NCBI GenBank assembly: GCA_001788835.1
Contig: MFXK01000034.1
Span: 1 to 33,556, forward strand
Length of the DNA stretch: 33,556 nucleotides
Reading direction: 5' to 3'
Origin: Candidatus Peregrinibacteria bacterium RIFOXYB2_FULL_33_20
Lineage (GTDB): Bacteria > Patescibacteriota > Gracilibacteria > UBA1369 > GWF2-33-10
Shown: one piece after another, positions 24,573 to 33,556 of the stretch
Numbering within the stretch: the stretch's first letter is position 1
How the letters are laid out: each line of letters begins with the position of its first letter
Notes under the pieces: generated by a model
Told to the model about the DNA's origin: nothing
Seen by the model: only the letters and a program-made list of their open reading frames with translations
Databases searched by the model: none
Position numbers and translations under genes: made by a program

Positions 24573-26318
24573 ATGATCAAAGTCTGTAAAAACTGCCAAC
24601 AAAATTTCGAAATCACTGATGATGATTTGAAATTTTATGAAAAAATATCACCAGTTTTTGGAGGGGAAAAATATTTAATACCAGCACCGAGTTTATGTCC
24701 TGATTGTAGACTACAAAGAAGAATGTCGTGGAGGAATGATCGTAATTTTTATAAAAGAAAATGTGATTTTTCAGGGAAGGAAATGATTTCAATGTATAAA
24801 CCAGGTAATTTAAAGGTTTATGATCATGAAATTTGGTGGGGTGATAAGTGGGATACAAGTGAATATGCTCAAGAATATGATTTTAATAAATCTTTTTTTG
24901 AACAACTTTCAGAACTTATTTATAATGTACCCCATCCAAATGTTGCTCAATTAAATAGTGAAAACTCACTTTATACAAATTTCACTGCCTGGAATAAAAA
25001 TTGTTATCTTTGTTCCGCTGGTAATAAACTTGAAGATAGTGCCTATTGTTATAATGTAGAAGAATCAAAAGATTGTTTTGATTGCTTGAATTTATTAAAT
25101 TGTGAACTTTGCTACCAAACTATACATTGCGAAAATTGTTATAAACTTTATTTTTCTATACATTCCAAAAACTCCCAAGAATCTTATTTTTTAGAAGATT
25201 GTATTGGTTGCAGTCACTGTTTGCTGTGTTTTAATTTACAACACAAAGAATATTGTATTTTAAATAAGCAATACACAAAAGAAGAATATTTAGAAAAGAT
25301 TCAAGAATATAAATTAAATACTTATAATGGAATATTTGATGCTTTCAAAATATGGCAGAAAGAAAGTATTAAATATCCAAAAAAAGCCAATCATAATATT
25401 TTTGCTGAAAATTGTAGTGGAGAATATATTTCTCATTCAAAAAATTGTGAAAACTGTTATTTAGTTCATAAAAATAATGAAGATTGTAAACATATTTTTG
25501 CGGGATTTCCTAATTTAAAAGATTCTTATGACTGCATTTATACCGGAGAAGGTGCGGAATTAACTTATGAAGGAATGTGTTCTGGAGATGGGACATTAAA
25601 ATGTGCTTTTGTGCAAGTAGTGATTAGTGGATGTGCAGATATTTATTATGGGGATTATTTAATTAATTGTCAAAATTGTTTTGGCTGTAGTGGGCTTAAA
25701 CATAAACAATATTGCATTCTGAACAAACAATACGCTAAAGAAGAATATGAAAAATTAGTGCCAAAAATTATTGAAGCGATGAAATCCCCTAAATCCCCTT
25801 TAACAAGGGGACTTGGACACCCCCTTGACAAAGGGGGCTTGGGGGATTGTGAGTGGGGTGAGTTTTTCCCATCTTCAATTTCTCCTTTTGGCTACAATGA
25901 AACAGTAGCACAAGAATATTTTCCATTAACCAAAGAACAAGCTTTGTCGAGAGGATTTAAATGGAGTGATTATGAACCAGAATTCCCAAAGGTTGAAAAA
26001 ATCATTTCAGCAAATTTATTACCAGATAGCATTTCAAAGATTCCTGATGATATTTTGAATTGGGCGATTGAATGTGAGGTTATGAAGAAACCTTTCAAAA
26101 TTATCGCACCAGAATTAGATTTTTATCGCCAAATGAATCTGCCAATTCCACGAAGACATCCAGATCAAAGACATAAAGATCGAATGGCTCTTCGAAATCC
26201 AAGGAAACTCTGGAAGAGAAATTGTATGAAATGTAATAGTGAAATTCAAACCACTTATTCGCCTGAAAGACCAGAAATCGTATACTGTGAGAAGTGCTAT
26301 TTGGAGAAAGTATATTAA
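24573..26318 (+). CDS. Cysteine-rich double zinc-ribbon protein, paralog 1 (581 aa)
   Basis: The function is unknown. There are 37 cysteines in 581 residues. Layout: N-terminal zinc-ribbon module (CKNC at 5-8, CPDCRLQRR about 30 later, then KRKCDFSG); cysteine-rich half A (about 140-235, for example DCFDC, NCELC, HCENC) ending at HKEYCILNKQYTKEEY; half B (about 280-395) ending at the same landmark, HKQYCILNKQYAKEEY; a conserved linker (GFKWSDYEPEFPKVEKII, then IPDDILNWAIECEV); and a C-terminal zinc ribbon (NCMKC and YCEKC). An in-frame 66-bp palindrome adds about 20 residues near 405-425. There is no signal peptide or membrane helix. It directly follows the penicillin-binding protein gene (10-base gap). 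Metal binding is inferred from the Cys pairs only. Confidence 0.85.
   Translation: MIKVCKNCQQNFEITDDDLKFYEKISPVFGGEKYLIPAPSLCPDCRLQRRMSWRNDRNFYKRKCDFSGKEMISMYKPGNLKVYDHEIWWGDKWDTSEYAQEYDFNKSFFEQLSELIYNVPHPNVAQLNSENSLYTNFTAWNKNCYLCSAGNKLEDSAYCYNVEESKDCFDCLNLLNCELCYQTIHCENCYKLYFSIHSKNSQESYFLEDCIGCSHCLLCFNLQHKEYCILNKQYTKEEYLEKIQEYKLNTYNGIFDAFKIWQKESIKYPKKANHNIFAENCSGEYISHSKNCENCYLVHKNNEDCKHIFAGFPNLKDSYDCIYTGEGAELTYEGMCSGDGTLKCAFVQVVISGCADIYYGDYLINCQNCFGCSGLKHKQYCILNKQYAKEEYEKLVPKIIEAMKSPKSPLTRGLGHPLDKGGLGDCEWGEFFPSSISPFGYNETVAQEYFPLTKEQALSRGFKWSDYEPEFPKVEKIISANLLPDSISKIPDDILNWAIECEVMKKPFKIIAPELDFYRQMNLPIPRRHPDQRHKDRMALRNPRKLWKRNCMKCNSEIQTTYSPERPEIVYCEKCYLEKVY
25783..25848. repeat. 66-bp in-frame palindromic insertion, copy A
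   Basis: A G/C-run palindrome lies inside paralog 1: the outer arms AATCCCCTAAATCCCC and GGGGGCTTGGGGGATT are nearly complementary, with two inner hairpins (CCCCTT-N4-AAGGGG and CCCCCTT-N3-AAAGGGGG). It is identical to 29338-29403. Paralog 3 lacks it at the aligned place, which marks it as an insertion that kept the frame. Confidence 0.9.
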
Positions 26319-26533: not shown

Positions 26534-26818
26534 ATGCCTCAGTGCCTTCAATGCCAACGAAATTTTGAAATTCCAGATTCAATAGAAGATGTTGATAATC
26601 AAATTACAAATAAAATTTTTGCATGCACTGACTGCAATAAAAATTATAAAATAATGCTAACTGAATTAAATTTCTATAAAAAAATGAATCTACGAAATCC
26701 AATTTATATACTTGATCGAAATTGTGGCAAATGCAATTCTCAAATTAAAACAACTTACACAGAAACTTCAGCCTCATTTGTATATTGCCAAAAATGCTAT
26801 AGCGAAACGGTAGATTGA
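26534..26818 (+). CDS. Miniature zinc-ribbon paralog, 94 aa
   Basis: It looks like the ends of the large cysteine-rich proteins joined without the middle. The N terminus has CLQCQRNFEI, matching CKNCQQNFEI, and a second pair CTDC about 30 residues on. Then comes LNFYKKMNL, matching LEFYRKMNL in the C-terminal module of the large proteins, and the complete C-terminal ribbon NCGKC with YCQKC about 19 residues later. Nine cysteines in all could hold two zinc ions. It arose either by internal deletion or as an ancestral minimal form. A TATAAT box lies at 26485-26490. The next gene starts 68 bases later. There is no signal peptide. Confidence 0.75.
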   Translation: MPQCLQCQRNFEIPDSIEDVDNQITNKIFACTDCNKNYKIMLTELNFYKKMNLRNPIYILDRNCGKCNSQIKTTYTETSASFVYCQKCYSETVD

Positions 26819-26886: not shown

Positions 26887-27486
26887 ATGAACATAATCAA
26901 ACTAGAAAATAACGGGAATTTATTTTTTACTACTGAAGATATTAGTAGAATTTTAAATATATCTGATGCAAGTAGCAGGGTATTTTGCAGTAGATATGTA
27001 AATAAGAAAATTTTAATACGACTTAAAAAAGATATTTATATTTTAAAAGAAAAAATCAATTTATTAGAAAGAGAAGATTTGTTTTTTCTAAGTAATTTAA
27101 TACAAACTCCATCTTATATATCTTTTATGACAGCTATGGCTTATTTTGAAGTCACAACTCAAATGACACGAAATATAATTGAAGCTGTTAGCGTAATAAG
27201 AACTAAAACTTTTGATTCAGAAAATTTCAATTTTATATATAAAAAATTAAAAAATAATTTATATTTTAGCTTTAACAGAATTGGAAAATTTTTTATAGCG
27301 ACAAAAGAAAAAGCTTTTTTAGATTGTCTTTATTTTCAATCTTTAGGGCGATATGATTTCGATATAGAAAGTATAGATTTTAATAAATTAGATTTAAAAA
27401 TATTAAAAAAACTTTCAAAAAAATTCCCCTTCAAAACACAAAAATTACTAAACCAATTAATTCAAAATTCAAAATTTAGAATTTAA
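26887..27486 (+). CDS. AbiEi-like antitoxin / winged-helix regulator
   Basis: The 199 residues begin with a winged-helix region (FTTEDISRILNISDASSRVFCSRYVNKKILIRLKK split over residues 15-50) and a short wing ending in DIYIL, as in AbiEi antitoxins. These bind their own promoter and counter the partner toxin. The second half contains GKFFIATKEKAFLDCLYF, close to the IATPEKALLDLLY-type motif of AbiEi proteins, and a lysine-rich helical end. The partner gene begins 10 bases downstream. Its last codons fall in the AT-rich repeat word shared with 16047-16066. The promoter is adjacent, so autoregulation is likely. It sits within the array of cysteine-rich paralogs. Confidence 0.75.
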   Translation: MNIIKLENNGNLFFTTEDISRILNISDASSRVFCSRYVNKKILIRLKKDIYILKEKINLLEREDLFFLSNLIQTPSYISFMTAMAYFEVTTQMTRNIIEAVSVIRTKTFDSENFNFIYKKLKNNLYFSFNRIGKFFIATKEKAFLDCLYFQSLGRYDFDIESIDFNKLDLKILKKLSKKFPFKTQKLLNQLIQNSKFRI

Positions 27487-27496
27487 AATTTTCCCC

Positions 27497-28153
27497 ATGC
27501 TTGATTTACAAAAACATGAACGATTCGAAATGGAAATTTTGAAATTAATGTCTGACAATAATTTTCTTAATCCAATAATATTTGGTGGAGGTACTTGTTT
27601 AAGGCTTTGTTTTGGATTAAATCGATATTCTGTTGATCTTGATTTTTTTCAAAAAAATAAATTCCCAAATAATTATTTCGAAAAATTTAAAAAGATATTA
27701 GCTGAAAATTATGAAATAACTGATTTTTGGGAAAAACATTTTGCCTTTTTAATCGAGATTAGATCTCCAAAATATCTTCGCAGATTAAAAATAGAAATGA
27801 GAAAGGAAATAGAAAATAATATAGAAACTGAATTAAATATAGCTTATTCACCGTTTTCTGACACACAAGTTAGGCTTACAACATTCACTCTTAAACAAAT
27901 GTGGCTCAATAAGATACATGCTTTTACAGATAGGAAAAAAATTCGTGACGCATATGATTTGGAATTTCTTTTAAAAAAAGATAGGAATTTTATAAATCTC
28001 ATTTCTAACGAACAAAAATTAAAAATGATAAAAAAACTAGATTCATTTAAAAAAATGGACTTCAAAATTACTTTAGGCTCAATATTAGAAAAATCAGAAA
28101 GGGATTTTTACAATGAAAATGGTTTTAAATTATTAAAAACCTCTTTAATATAA
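27497..28153 (+). CDS. AbiEii/AbiGii-family nucleotidyltransferase toxin
   Basis: The 218 residues carry the nucleotidyltransferase signature of the family: FGGGTCLRLCFGL (29-41), then RYSVDLDFF (43-51) with Asp47 and Asp49 as likely metal ligands. The expected follow-on segments are present, a beta strand pair (LRRLKIEMR) and the helix LKQMWLNKIHAFTDRKKIRDAYDLEFLL containing Lys and Asp residues typical of DUF1814. Characterised members stop growth by modifying RNA or nucleotides, and AbiE is a phage-abortive system. Together with the preceding gene it is a probable type IV toxin-antitoxin pair. It is followed within 8 bases by paralog 2. Confidence 0.82.
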   Translation: MLDLQKHERFEMEILKLMSDNNFLNPIIFGGGTCLRLCFGLNRYSVDLDFFQKNKFPNNYFEKFKKILAENYEITDFWEKHFAFLIEIRSPKYLRRLKIEMRKEIENNIETELNIAYSPFSDTQVRLTTFTLKQMWLNKIHAFTDRKKIRDAYDLEFLLKKDRNFINLISNEQKLKMIKKLDSFKKMDFKITLGSILEKSERDFYNENGFKLLKTSLI

Positions 28154-28160
28154 TTTTTTT

Positions 28161-29873
28161 ATGCGAAAAACCTGCAAAAATTGTTCTCAAAATTTTGAAA
28201 TAACTGATCAAGAAAAAATCTTTCATGAAAAATGGGATTTGCCAATGTCAGATACTTGTCCACAAGATCGCTTGATAGAAATAATGGCTTTTCGAAATGA
28301 AAACAGACTATATCCTCGCAAATGCAGCTTGAGTAATGAAAGTATTTTAAGCGCATATCAGCCAAATACAAGTTTCCCTGTATATAAAAATGAAATTTGG
28401 TGGGGAGATGGTTGGGATGGGCTTGAGTACGGAAGAGAGTTTAATTTAGACAAATCATTCTTTCAACAATTTCAAGAACTTCAAAAAGTTGTTCCAAGAG
28501 AAGGAACTTCAATTTTTAATTGCGAAAATTGTGATTTCAATAGCCATACCAGAACTTCCAAAAATTGTTATTTAAATTCTTTGGTGGCCGATTGCGAAGA
28601 TGTCTATTACTCACATTGGGTCGTTAAAAACAAAAATGTAATTGACTGTATATATTTTAATGATAGCCAGCTTTGTTATGAATGTATTGATTGTTATAAC
28701 CTATATAATTGTTTCGTATTGCAAGAATCAACTAATTGTAGTGATTCGTTTTTTTGTTATCAAATAAAAAATTGCAACAAATGTATTTTTTGCACTAATA
28801 TTACAAATAAAAGTTTTCATATTTTTAATAAATCAGCATCAGAAGATGAATATAACATTTTAAAATCTAAAATTTTGAGCGGATCGTATAAAACATGGAT
28901 GGATTTTTATAAAAAATTTCTGGACATGACCAAAAAAACAAAGCATAGATCCATACATGGTTTAAATTACGAAAATTCAACTGGAGACCATATATATAAT
29001 TCCAAAAATTGCCACACCTGTTTTGACATTCACGGCTCTGAAGATTGTTTCAATAATGCTTCAATTGGAGACAGCAAAGATGTTTATGATTCTTATTCTA
29101 TAGGATGGCCGAAATGTGAAATCGTATATAAATCTTGCGTGATAAGAGGTTCTACTGATATAGCTTTTTGTAATTATGTATGGTTTTCAAATAATTTAAA
29201 ATATTGCGACAGCTGTATTTCTTGTAAAAATTGTTTTGGCTGTGTTGGGCTAAAACATAAAGAATATTGCATTTTAAATAAACAATACAGCAAGGAAGAA
29301 TACGAAAAATTGGTGCCAAAAATAATTGAAGCGATGAAATCCCCTAAATCCCCTTTAACAAGGGGACTTGGACACCCCCTTGACAAAGGGGGCTTGGGGG
29401 ATTGTGAATGGAACAATTTTCCAGCCAAATATTTATCGGTTTTTACATATAATGAAACTGCGGCTCAAGATTATTTTCCATTAACTAAAGAAGAGGCAAT
29501 TACAAAAGGATTCAAATGGTCTGACTTTGAACCAGAATTTCCAAAGGTTGAAAAAATCATTTCAGCAAATTTATTACCAGATAGCATTTCAAAGATTCCT
29601 GATGATATTTTGAATTGGGCTGTCGAGTGTGAAATCACCAAAAAACCATTTAAAATCATCAAACCAGAATTAGAATTTTATCGCAAAATGAATTTACCAA
29701 TCCCACATTTACATCCAGATCAAAGACATAAAGATCGAATGGCTCTTCGAAATCCAAGGAAACTCTGGAAGAGAAATTGTATGAAATGTGGTAGTGAGAT
29801 TCAAACAACGTATAGTCCTGAAAGAAAGGAGATTGTTTATTGTGAGAAGTGTTATTTAAAAGAAGTATATTAG
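28161..29873 (+). CDS. Cysteine-rich double zinc-ribbon protein, paralog 2 (570 aa)
   Basis: It has the same layout as paralog 1. The N-terminal module is partly decayed: CKNC is present (4-7) but the second pair reads CPQDR instead of CPxCR, resembling the HPDQR of the C-terminal modules. Half A (about 120-225, NCENC, DCEDVYYSH, LCYECIDC, NCNKC) ends in a changed landmark (KSFHIFNKSASEDEY). Half B keeps HKEYCILNKQYSKEEY, followed by the in-frame 66-bp palindrome, the conserved linker and the C-terminal ribbon (NCMKC, YCEKC). In half A the repeated pattern of Asn-Cys and Cys-x-x-Cys about every 10 residues suggests a solenoid. Parts of its 3' third are base-identical to paralog 1. Function unknown. 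Confidence 0.85.
   Translation: MRKTCKNCSQNFEITDQEKIFHEKWDLPMSDTCPQDRLIEIMAFRNENRLYPRKCSLSNESILSAYQPNTSFPVYKNEIWWGDGWDGLEYGREFNLDKSFFQQFQELQKVVPREGTSIFNCENCDFNSHTRTSKNCYLNSLVADCEDVYYSHWVVKNKNVIDCIYFNDSQLCYECIDCYNLYNCFVLQESTNCSDSFFCYQIKNCNKCIFCTNITNKSFHIFNKSASEDEYNILKSKILSGSYKTWMDFYKKFLDMTKKTKHRSIHGLNYENSTGDHIYNSKNCHTCFDIHGSEDCFNNASIGDSKDVYDSYSIGWPKCEIVYKSCVIRGSTDIAFCNYVWFSNNLKYCDSCISCKNCFGCVGLKHKEYCILNKQYSKEEYEKLVPKIIEAMKSPKSPLTRGLGHPLDKGGLGDCEWNNFPAKYLSVFTYNETAAQDYFPLTKEEAITKGFKWSDFEPEFPKVEKIISANLLPDSISKIPDDILNWAVECEITKKPFKIIKPELEFYRKMNLPIPHLHPDQRHKDRMALRNPRKLWKRNCMKCGSEIQTTYSPERKEIVYCEKCYLKEVY
29338..29403. repeat. 66-bp in-frame palindromic insertion, copy B
   Basis: This copy is base-for-base identical to 25783-25848 although the codons just before it differ at synonymous positions between the two genes. 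Read on the minus strand in the matching frame it gives nearly the same peptide (PKPPLSRG and PLVKGDLGD against PKSPLTRG and PLDKGGLGD), so it can enter genes in either direction without a stop. Confidence 0.9.
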
Positions 29874-29897: not shown

Positions 29898-29924
29898 GGA
29901 TTCCGCATCAAGTGCGGAATGACA
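29898..29924. repeat. Short dispersed palindrome, copy 3
   Basis: ATTCCGCA (29900-29907), a 5-base loop and TGCGGAAT (29913-29920) are followed by GACA, like the copy at 118-144. It lies between the stop of paralog 2 and the membrane protein gene. The open frame of the latter reaches into it only through a GTG inside the repeat. Confidence 0.65.
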
Positions 29925-29971
29925 GGCTTGCGAAAAATGTTATTTGGAGAGTATTTATTAATTTTCAATTT

Positions 29972-30625
29972 ATGTTAATGCGTTATCTCAAAGTAATTTT
30001 ATATATTTTTTTATTCATGATTGCTTGGTCTGGTATTTTTTTAGCTATAGCTTTATTGTCAGGATTAAATGCTGATATAATTCTTATTATGGCTATAAGT
30101 GGTGGAGTAATCTTGAGTGTTTCTTTTATCCCTTTTTTGAATTGGGCGATAAAACATTGTTTTTATTATAAAAGCGATGATAAGCCTGTATCTTATGAGG
30201 ATTTATATCAAGAATTATTAAATATCAATAAAATTGATGCTCCAATAATGACACAGGAAAAAGGGAATAAAATGATTATTACATGGAAATATATTGACGC
30301 AAAATGGTGGGAGATTTTAAAAAAAAATTCCTTGAAAGCAATTTACGAATTACAAATAAAATTTAATAAAAATAAACATTATGTAGTATTAATTGATATT
30401 TCAAAAAAAGTTGAATGGGGCGTAGGACCACAAGGAGTTAAACTTTCTGCCAATTATAATCGTGGTGTTTTTGCTTCAGCAGAAATTGGTAAACAATTTG
30501 GTATTAAAGAAAATTTCACTTTAGGAAAAATTTATGATTACAAATTCAAATCTTCTGAAATAAAAACTCCTGTAGTGAATATGATTTTGAAAAAAGGATG
30601 GGATGTGTATTTCGGAATATGGTAA
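29972..30625 (+). CDS. Small membrane protein of unknown function, 217 aa
   Basis: From the ATG at 29972 (MLMRYLKVILYIFLF) there are two closely spaced membrane helices (about 5-27 and 33-56), then a soluble domain of about 150 residues with alternating strands (KMIITWKYIDAKWWEIL, HYVVLIDISKKVEWGVGPQG). The domain ends in a Trp/Phe-rich tail (GWDVYFGIW). The open frame extends to a GTG at 29912, but that GTG lies in the dispersed palindrome, so I reject it. No family is recognised. It separates paralogs 2 and 3, with its stop only 14 bases before the probable start of paralog 3. Co-transcription with them is likely. It has only one cysteine, so it is not a member of the family. Confidence 0.7.
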   Translation: MLMRYLKVILYIFLFMIAWSGIFLAIALLSGLNADIILIMAISGGVILSVSFIPFLNWAIKHCFYYKSDDKPVSYEDLYQELLNINKIDAPIMTQEKGNKMIITWKYIDAKWWEILKKNSLKAIYELQIKFNKNKHYVVLIDISKKVEWGVGPQGVKLSANYNRGVFASAEIGKQFGIKENFTLGKIYDYKFKSSEIKTPVVNMILKKGWDVYFGIW

Positions 30626-32343: not shown

Positions 32344-33556
32344 ATGCAAAAAATCTGTAAAAATTGTCAACAAAACTTCGAAATTACCAATGAAGATTTG
32401 AAATTCTATGAAAAAGTATCGCCGGAATTTAATGGGAAGAAATATTTAATTCCAGTACCGCAATTTTGTCCAAGATGTAGAGAACAAAGGCGTTGGGCAA
32501 GAAGAAATCAGGCTAAACTCTATAAAAGAAAATGTGATTTTTCAGGTGAAGATATTATTTCGCTTTATTCGCCTGATAAATCTTATAAAGTTTATGCTGA
32601 GAAATATTTATGGAGTGATAAATTTGATCCAATGACATATGGTCGTGATTATGATTTCTCCAAAACTTTTTTTCAGCAATTTTATGAATTGCAAAAAGAT
32701 GTCCCACGCGGAGCAATGCAACAAGATGGAACTAATGAGAACTGTGAATATACTACTTTTGGTGGTAATAACAAAAATTGTTACCTTACTTATGCATGTT
32801 CTTATAATCAAGATATTTGTCATAGCACTTTTGTTATAACAACAAAAAATTCTTGCGACTGCCTTGTTGTTATTGGTTCAGAATTTTGTTATGAGTGTGT
32901 GGATTGCAGTAAGTGTTATAATTGTAAATTCTGTAAAGATTGCAATGAATGCCTTGACTCATATTTTTTGGATGATTGTAAAGGATGTGTGAATTGTATC
33001 TGTTGTAAAAATTTAAGAAATAAATCTTTTTATATTTATAATAAAAAAGTTTCCAAAGAAGAATTTGAAAAATTTAAAAAATATTTAGATGAAGGAGATT
33101 TATTAAAAGAAAAGGAAAAATTTGATCAATGGAAATTTCAATTTCCATATATTTGCCAGCACATTGTAAATTCAGAAAATTCTGATGGAGATTATTTAGA
33201 ACATGCTAAGAATTGTCATCAGTGTTTTGATATTGTTTTAAGCGCAGAAGATTGTAAATATTGTCAATATTCAGGCTGGAATGGGAAAGATATGATGGAT
33301 GTTTCCATGTGTGGAAAAAATTCTGAACTTGTATATGAAATGCAAGCGACAGTTGAATCTTATAATTGTGCTTTTACATTTTTTTGCAGAGATGACCAGA
33401 ATTCTTATTATTGTGATAATATAAATCATTGCAAACATTGTTTCGGATGCATAAATCTTAGACATAAAGAGTATTGTATTTTAAACAAACAATACACAAA
33501 AGAAGAATATGAAATTTTGGTCCCGAAAATAATAAATAAAATGAAAGAAGATTTGG
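32344..33556 (+). CDS. Cysteine-rich double zinc-ribbon protein, paralog 4 (cut by window end)
   Basis: The frame opens at ATG 32344 (MQKICKNCQQNFEIT) and is open for 404 codons to the last base. The N-terminal module has CKNC and CPRCREQRR and then KRKCDFSGEDIISLYSPD. Half A is the densest in cysteines (LCYECVDC-like FCYECVDCSKCYNC, KDCNEC, DCKGCVNC) and ends at KSFYIYNKKVSKEEF. Half B ends at HKEYCILNKQYTKEEY, followed by MKEDL at the window edge, so no palindrome starts at that place. The linker and C-terminal ribbon should follow outside the window. It is probably in one operon with paralog 3 (10-base gap). Confidence 0.85.
   Translation, partial: MQKICKNCQQNFEITNEDLKFYEKVSPEFNGKKYLIPVPQFCPRCREQRRWARRNQAKLYKRKCDFSGEDIISLYSPDKSYKVYAEKYLWSDKFDPMTYGRDYDFSKTFFQQFYELQKDVPRGAMQQDGTNENCEYTTFGGNNKNCYLTYACSYNQDICHSTFVITTKNSCDCLVVIGSEFCYECVDCSKCYNCKFCKDCNECLDSYFLDDCKGCVNCICCKNLRNKSFYIYNKKVSKEEFEKFKKYLDEGDLLKEKEKFDQWKFQFPYICQHIVNSENSDGDYLEHAKNCHQCFDIVLSAEDCKYCQYSGWNGKDMMDVSMCGKNSELVYEMQATVESYNCAFTFFCRDDQNSYYCDNINHCKHCFGCINLRHKEYCILNKQYTKEEYEILVPKIINKMKEDL

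Follow-up and report, generated by a model that had tools for sequence, protein, structure and literature searches.

A cysteine-rich protein family of Patescibacteria with the predicted architecture of a zinc-ended double beta-solenoid

The window analyzed here, the whole of contig C34 (33,556 nucleotides), is one of the 42 contigs of the 1.5 Mb genome of Candidatus Peregrinibacteria bacterium RIFOXYB2_FULL_33_20, and it carries four paralogs (P0001 to P0004), all in the same direction on the forward strand. Computational analysis shows that in both halves of their cysteine-rich middle the chain makes one turn per 12 residues and points every third residue inward, four per turn, nearly half of these being cysteine, and that the middle cysteines behave as interchangeable buried core residues and the end cysteines as zinc ligands. 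The architecture is very probably that of a zinc-ended double beta-solenoid. The explanation that best accounts for the whole, to which we assign a probability of roughly 0.55, is that this protein, with its thiol core, is a recognition adaptor.

Domain organization and coil geometry

The protein under study, P0004, is encoded at 32344-33556 by an ORF that is cut by the contig end; the 404 residues that can be read align to residues 1-405 of P0001, the first full-length paralog (24573-26318, 581 aa; assigned by homology and an AlphaFold2 model). Two further full-length paralogs were assigned by homology, P0002 (28161-29873, 570 aa; also by alignment) and P0003 (30633-32333, 566 aa). Profile comparison of alignment slices revealed two nested duplications, which give the layout Z-A-B-Z′. 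Half A of the middle (slice 129-274) is homologous to half B (275-405; hhalign 99.9%, E 1.8e-36), in agreement with the duplicated middle reported in a preliminary description of this DNA, and the N-terminal module (1-128) is homologous to the C-terminal one (485-581; hhalign 99.7%, E 3.9e-26), a pair which that description had missed.

In P0001, the N-terminal zinc module (24573-24956) is followed by solenoid half A (24957-25280, residues 129-236; delimited by the cysteine lattice, hhalign, the model, and volume covariation), half B (25395-25736, residues 275-388; lattice, hhalign, and model), and the C-terminal zinc module (26025-26315). In P0004, the N-terminal zinc module occupies 32344-32715, as judged from alignment and cysteine conservation, and the cysteine-rich middle spans 32716-33546, with half A at 32716-33066 (cysteine periodicity and AlphaFold2 model) and half B at 33175-33510 (periodicity, homology to A, and model). 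Both halves had been said to close with the same landmark. This is exact for the two halves of paralog 1 (KEYCILNKQYTKEEY and KQYCILNKQYAKEEY) and for half B of P0004 (HKEYCILNKQYTKEEY, 33463-33510), whereas half A of P0004 ends in an approximate version, KSFYIYNKKVSKEEF (33019-33066). The linker after half B holds, at the same place in many paralogs, a palindromic repeat of a C-run and a G-run (CCCCTTTAACAAGGGG...CCCCCTTGACAAAGGGG), located in the window at 25795-25836 and 29350-29391 and with 26 strand matches genome-wide; it is in frame, encodes the peptide SPLTRGLGHPLDKGGLGD, and has a predicted hairpin of -40 kcal/mol.

The end modules are treble-clef/ribbon zinc domains that match PF13451, PF23477, and TIGR04272, mostly under the curated cut-offs: zf_Tbcl (PF13451) matches the N-terminal module of P0001 weakly, PF23477 scores above its cut-off in P0003 and below it in the C-terminal module of P0001, and the scores of P0002 and P0003 against TIGR04272 fall short of its cut-off. 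The C-terminal module of P0001 combines a degenerate treble clef with a CxxC-x17-CxxC ribbon, all four cysteines of which (C551, C554, C572, and C575) are conserved at 96-99%. The N-terminal module of P0004 contains a treble clef of the C5, C8, C42, C45 type, and its second ribbon is down to one cysteine; in P0003, the second N-terminal ribbon is complete. The arginine-rich motifs CPxCRxQRR and RNPRKLW occur in the family. A short gene at 26534-26818 on the forward strand encodes a zinc module of the C-terminal kind alone (94 aa, no solenoid), which matches residues 483-580 of P0001 at 48%, and stand-alone zinc modules are widespread in the phylum.

Residues 129-400 of P0004 contain 32 cysteines, and 71% of the successive gaps between them are multiples of 3, compared with 29% after shuffling (0 of 20,000 shuffles reached as high a value). 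Across 109 homologues, 1397 of 1479 cysteine-to-cysteine gaps in half A (94%) are multiples of 3, and the cysteine autocorrelation peaks at lag 12, where it is enriched 3.8-fold. Half B of the same homologues is periodic yet less regular (795 of 1123 gaps), its lattice being broken in places. The preliminary description had cysteine-containing words recurring every 9-12 residues; the periodicity analysis that it proposed preserves the regular spacing and refines it to a strict 3-residue lattice with a 12-residue maximum. The inward phase of this lattice is occupied by cysteine (0.47), serine (0.16), and leucine (0.12), then by valine, glycine, isoleucine, and alanine. The other two phases hold mostly polar or aromatic letters; the one directly preceding the core residue is rich in aspartate and asparagine, and the third is mixed and the most variable.

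Side-chain volumes provide a separate view of the coil. Among 183 sequences, the volumes of core residues are anti-correlated when these lie 3, 9, or 12 positions apart (P ≤ 1e-4 in each case versus far pairs) and positively correlated at 6 or 15; no volume compensation appears in the surface phases. Compensation between corner neighbors (3 and 9) and between stacked residues (12) fits a coil of 12 residues with four core positions; a 9-residue coil would make separation 6 a neighbor, where no compensation is seen. Packing across opposite corners, considered as the origin of a negative cysteine correlation at separation 6, was dropped on the same grounds, since separation 6 is not among the distances at which the volumes compensate.

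AlphaFold2 modeling of full-length P0001 with 109 sequences produced a solenoid with a mean pLDDT of 89.8 and a pTM of 0.89, although confidence falls to ~70-77 pLDDT in the center of half A and in a stretch of half B. Its DSSP assignment reads 'E--E--E--' over residues 121-235 and 290-385, with a bridge residue at every third position. A second model, of the P0004 middle alone (pLDDT 82.1, pTM 0.81), is likewise a solenoid, and the two differ in DSSP detail. Such a regular coil with a periodic inward core places the middle in the beta-solenoid fold class. Together, the cysteine lattice, the inward phase, the models, and the volume compensation uphold the earlier proposal, for which structure prediction had been suggested as a check, of a solenoid with stacked cysteines. 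Foldseek searches against the PDB and viral models returned nothing at E ≤ 0.001 for either model; the weak matches were left-handed helices for the full model and right-handed helices for the solenoid model, and so are divided over the right-handed beta-helix to which the preliminary description had likened the spacing. The solenoid also had no consistent Pfam model and no PDB sequence match. One PDB sequence hit, to AM32 (E 0.0015), was judged to be due to chance, as it joins compositionally similar stretches and lacks the cysteine pattern. The solenoid appears to be a type of beta-helix whose core consists largely of free cysteines, with no solved relative in these searches.

Cysteines of the solenoid and of the zinc ends

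Each solenoid contains between 15 and 35 cysteines (mean 26), and the number is odd in 54 of 109 homologues. Over 1225 pairs of variable cysteine columns, phi averages 0.004 and reaches 0.42 at most. Where a solenoid cysteine is lost, the replacement is serine in 40%, leucine in 17%, and valine in 11% of cases, followed by glycine, isoleucine, threonine, and alanine. Pairs at separation 6 are anti-correlated (mean phi -0.12), and those at separation 12 have a phi of +0.10. The zinc sites of the same proteins serve as an internal control: a protein has either all or none of the optional ribbon ligands C67, C84, and C87 (phi 1.00), and C504 and C532 of the C-terminal module covary in the same all-or-none manner (phi 1.00). 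Solenoid cysteines that vary singly and give way to small or apolar residues, whereas zinc cysteines come and go as sets, therefore behave as buried core residues. In metallothionein-like or poly-Fe-S proteins, clustered cysteines would be conserved as ligand sets; the solenoid cysteines vary independently.

These observations speak against the cysteine ladders of metal ions, Fe-S units, or disulfides put forward in the preliminary description. Loose metal uptake, or a redox role for some of the most conserved cysteines (C144, C213, C216, C219, C372, and C381), may nonetheless occur. As a point of method, metal sites can be told from buried thiols by sequence alone, through whether their cysteines are lost together.

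Distribution, neighborhood, and divergence of the copies

The source genome contains ~18 full-length or near-full-length copies and several fragments. Genomes in this group of bacteria are tiny, and ~2% of this one is given to a single undescribed protein family. Of 40 near genomes, 29 carry the family, in as many as 21 matches each, and the best 77 loci of at least 549 relatives belong to Peregrinibacteria, Peribacteria, Gracilibacteria, Abawacabacteria, and unnamed Patescibacteria-type bins. Full-length copies are limited to some lineages within the phylum, the other matching genomes having mostly the zinc module only. Copies form tandem arrays of up to ~9 co-directional members. The end of contig C34, the start of C28, and the end of C42 fall inside or beside family copies, and because several contigs end in this way, the arrays appear to be where the assembly breaks. 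One copy in the source genome (C42:3707-4383) consists of N- and C-terminal parts with the solenoid missing.

Literature searches on these phyla yielded no description of the family. The earlier statement that no described family has this combination holds, given the lack of a consistent Pfam model, PDB sequence, or confident fold match over the solenoid, and the family is undescribed as far as the libraries searched reach. Phage and plasmid collections had no protein-level match, and one partial viral-contig locus matched in the viral collection; an origin as a phage gene was rejected on this basis. A PADLOC search for defense families gave no match.

Genes for TrmB-type regulators are concentrated around the family. 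In the source genome, 7 of 16 TrmB genes have a family gene within 1 kb (0.3 expected, P 3e-8), six of the seven being divergent. Of 31 TrmB genes at other loci, 26 adjoin family genes and 19 are divergent; the corresponding counts for non-TrmB genes are 63 and 12 of 179. Neighboring genes are otherwise mixed. Type IV toxin-antitoxin pairs occur among the copies, with a DUF6922-AbiEii pair beside a copy in contig C42 and, in the window, an AbiEi-like/AbiEii pair (26887-28153) between paralogs 1 and 2. A gene for a 237-aa protein with hydrophobic stretches and no Pfam match (29912-30625) separates paralogs 2 and 3. A SUF Fe-S assembly gene is also found in the window, ~9 kb away.

Solenoid-only and zinc-only genes are separate but adjacent in contig C38 of the source genome, where the solenoid-only protein has 329 aa, and in another genome (G218), an arrangement that supports joint action of the two parts. 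A relative that has one solenoid and the same end motif accompanies a HerA/TrwB-type ATPase in other Patescibacteria, as a neighbor or as a fusion: at one locus (L129:5199-7085), it forms the C-terminal domain of the ATPase, and at two others (L127 and L128), the two are separate neighboring genes.

In a tree of 182 proteins, 146 of 161 have their nearest relative in another genome. Compared region by region, the closest counterpart belongs to the same genome in 2 of 162 cases for the solenoid and in 41 of 161 for the C-terminal module (5.7 in shuffles, with a largest value of 17). A recent lineage-specific expansion is rejected by the tree and these nearest-neighbor tests; with nearest relatives mostly in other genomes, the copies represent old subtypes common to several genomes. 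Identities, which describe a sample of homologues drawn from the best-scoring loci, are 0.36 for the solenoid, 0.48 for the N-terminal module, and 0.57 for the C-terminal module among paralogs within a genome. Between genomes, the values are 0.70, 0.60, and 0.63, for pairs chosen by their alike solenoids and hence tilted toward solenoid identity; when pairs were binned by overall identity instead, those above 55% had the same order, with solenoids more similar than ends. By these sequence comparisons, the zinc ends appear to be partly homogenized, or to drift together, within each genome. Solenoids kept between genomes and divergent within them, and ends alike within a genome, suggest that each solenoid subtype recognizes its own conserved target and that the ends serve something common to a genome's copies.

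Proposed role and comparison with known systems

We propose that the protein is cytoplasmic, a placement drawn entirely from its having no visible signal peptide or membrane helix, and that its core cysteines are free thiols packing like small apolar residues. The solenoid surface of each paralog would recognize a target of its own, and docking of the solenoid onto a partner common to all paralogs of one genome would fall to the conserved zinc ends. A genome would thus hold a repertoire of about 5-25 adaptors, switched in groups by the neighboring TrmB-type regulators. This function as an adaptor repertoire is a serious candidate, at slightly short of even odds. More tentative is a broader proposal, which we regard as possible though rather unlikely, that the family forms a bacterial variable/constant recognition system, in which ~20 cytoplasmic proteins per 1.5 Mb genome combine a variable, thiol-cored solenoid of 12-residue coils with partly homogenized zinc modules that plug into one shared machine. 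The pattern of variable middle and constant ends offers a testable case for modular recognition in hard-to-culture organisms.

Other roles were weighed against the recognition adaptor. The acidic solenoids could imitate DNA, or the basic zinc ends could bind nucleic acid with the solenoid as a spacer. The net charge of about -4 per solenoid half and +3 for the C-terminal module, the arginine-rich motifs, the aspartate or asparagine directly before the core residue (as in pentapeptide repeats), and a pentapeptide-repeat gyrase inhibitor among the weak fold matches all point this way. However, the charge is modest, the gyrase-inhibitor match is at noise level (E 0.78), the Pfam pentapeptide match is absent, and a generic mimic leaves unexplained why distinct solenoids are each conserved between genomes; we consider this reading unlikely. 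Still less probable is a fast-evolving, antigen- or effector-like family for conflict or host interaction, in which diversity itself is selected. It would suit the tandem arrays, the 21 matches reached in a single genome, the type IV toxin-antitoxin genes interspersed with the copies, and the fusion of a relative to a secretion-type ATPase. Solenoid subtypes, however, are conserved from genome to genome no less than the ends are, contrary to what an arms race would produce; moreover, no signal peptide is seen, and the PADLOC search and the phage and plasmid collections came back empty.

A metal or redox store, in which cysteine ladders bind metal ions or Fe-S units, or disulfides open and close as a buffer or sensor, also seems improbable. 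It draws on the very high cysteine content, the stacking of cysteines at separation 12, and the SUF gene in the window, distant though that is. Against it stand cysteine columns that vary independently and accept serine, leucine, valine, glycine, isoleucine, threonine, or alanine while the zinc sites of the same proteins are all-or-none, the anti-correlation of pairs at separation 6, and cysteine numbers that are odd as often as even.

Pentapeptide-repeat proteins such as Qnr and MfpA are quadrilateral beta-helices of 20 residues per coil that imitate DNA, with aspartate or asparagine directly before the core residue. The present family resembles them in its four inward positions per coil, in the aspartate or asparagine before the core, and in its many paralogs per genome, but it has three rather than five residues per side and a core of cysteine rather than leucine or phenylalanine; its period of 3/12, not 5/20, departs from the A(D/N)LXX pattern. 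A second comparison is with the hyperactive antifreeze proteins of beetles, whose 12-residue coil points positions 2, 5, 8, and 11 inward, two of them cysteine (PMC8038014). The family shares with these proteins (TmAFP, 1EZG, and DhbAFP; TCTxSxNCxxAx) the 12-residue coil with every third residue inward. The beetle proteins, in contrast, are extracellular, measure ~10 kDa, and have a C2-C8 disulfide in each coil, whereas inward cysteines six apart are anti-correlated in the family, which also has zinc modules at both ends. No sequence match to beetle antifreeze proteins, whose coil is right-handed, was found, and TmAFP is absent among the fold matches listed.

The Knotted Solenoid proteins of Brevundimonas, described in 2026, are likewise beta-solenoids confined to one bacterial group, and their role is not known (PMC13123833). 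They concern another taxon, with zinc ends not mentioned and a relation not indicated, and were rejected as a match for the family. The end modules, for their part, score against the models of zf_Tbcl (PF13451), zf_Tbcl_2 (PF23477), and TIGR04272, most of them below the curated cut-offs; what sets the family apart from these zinc domains is that its module is duplicated and flanks a double solenoid.
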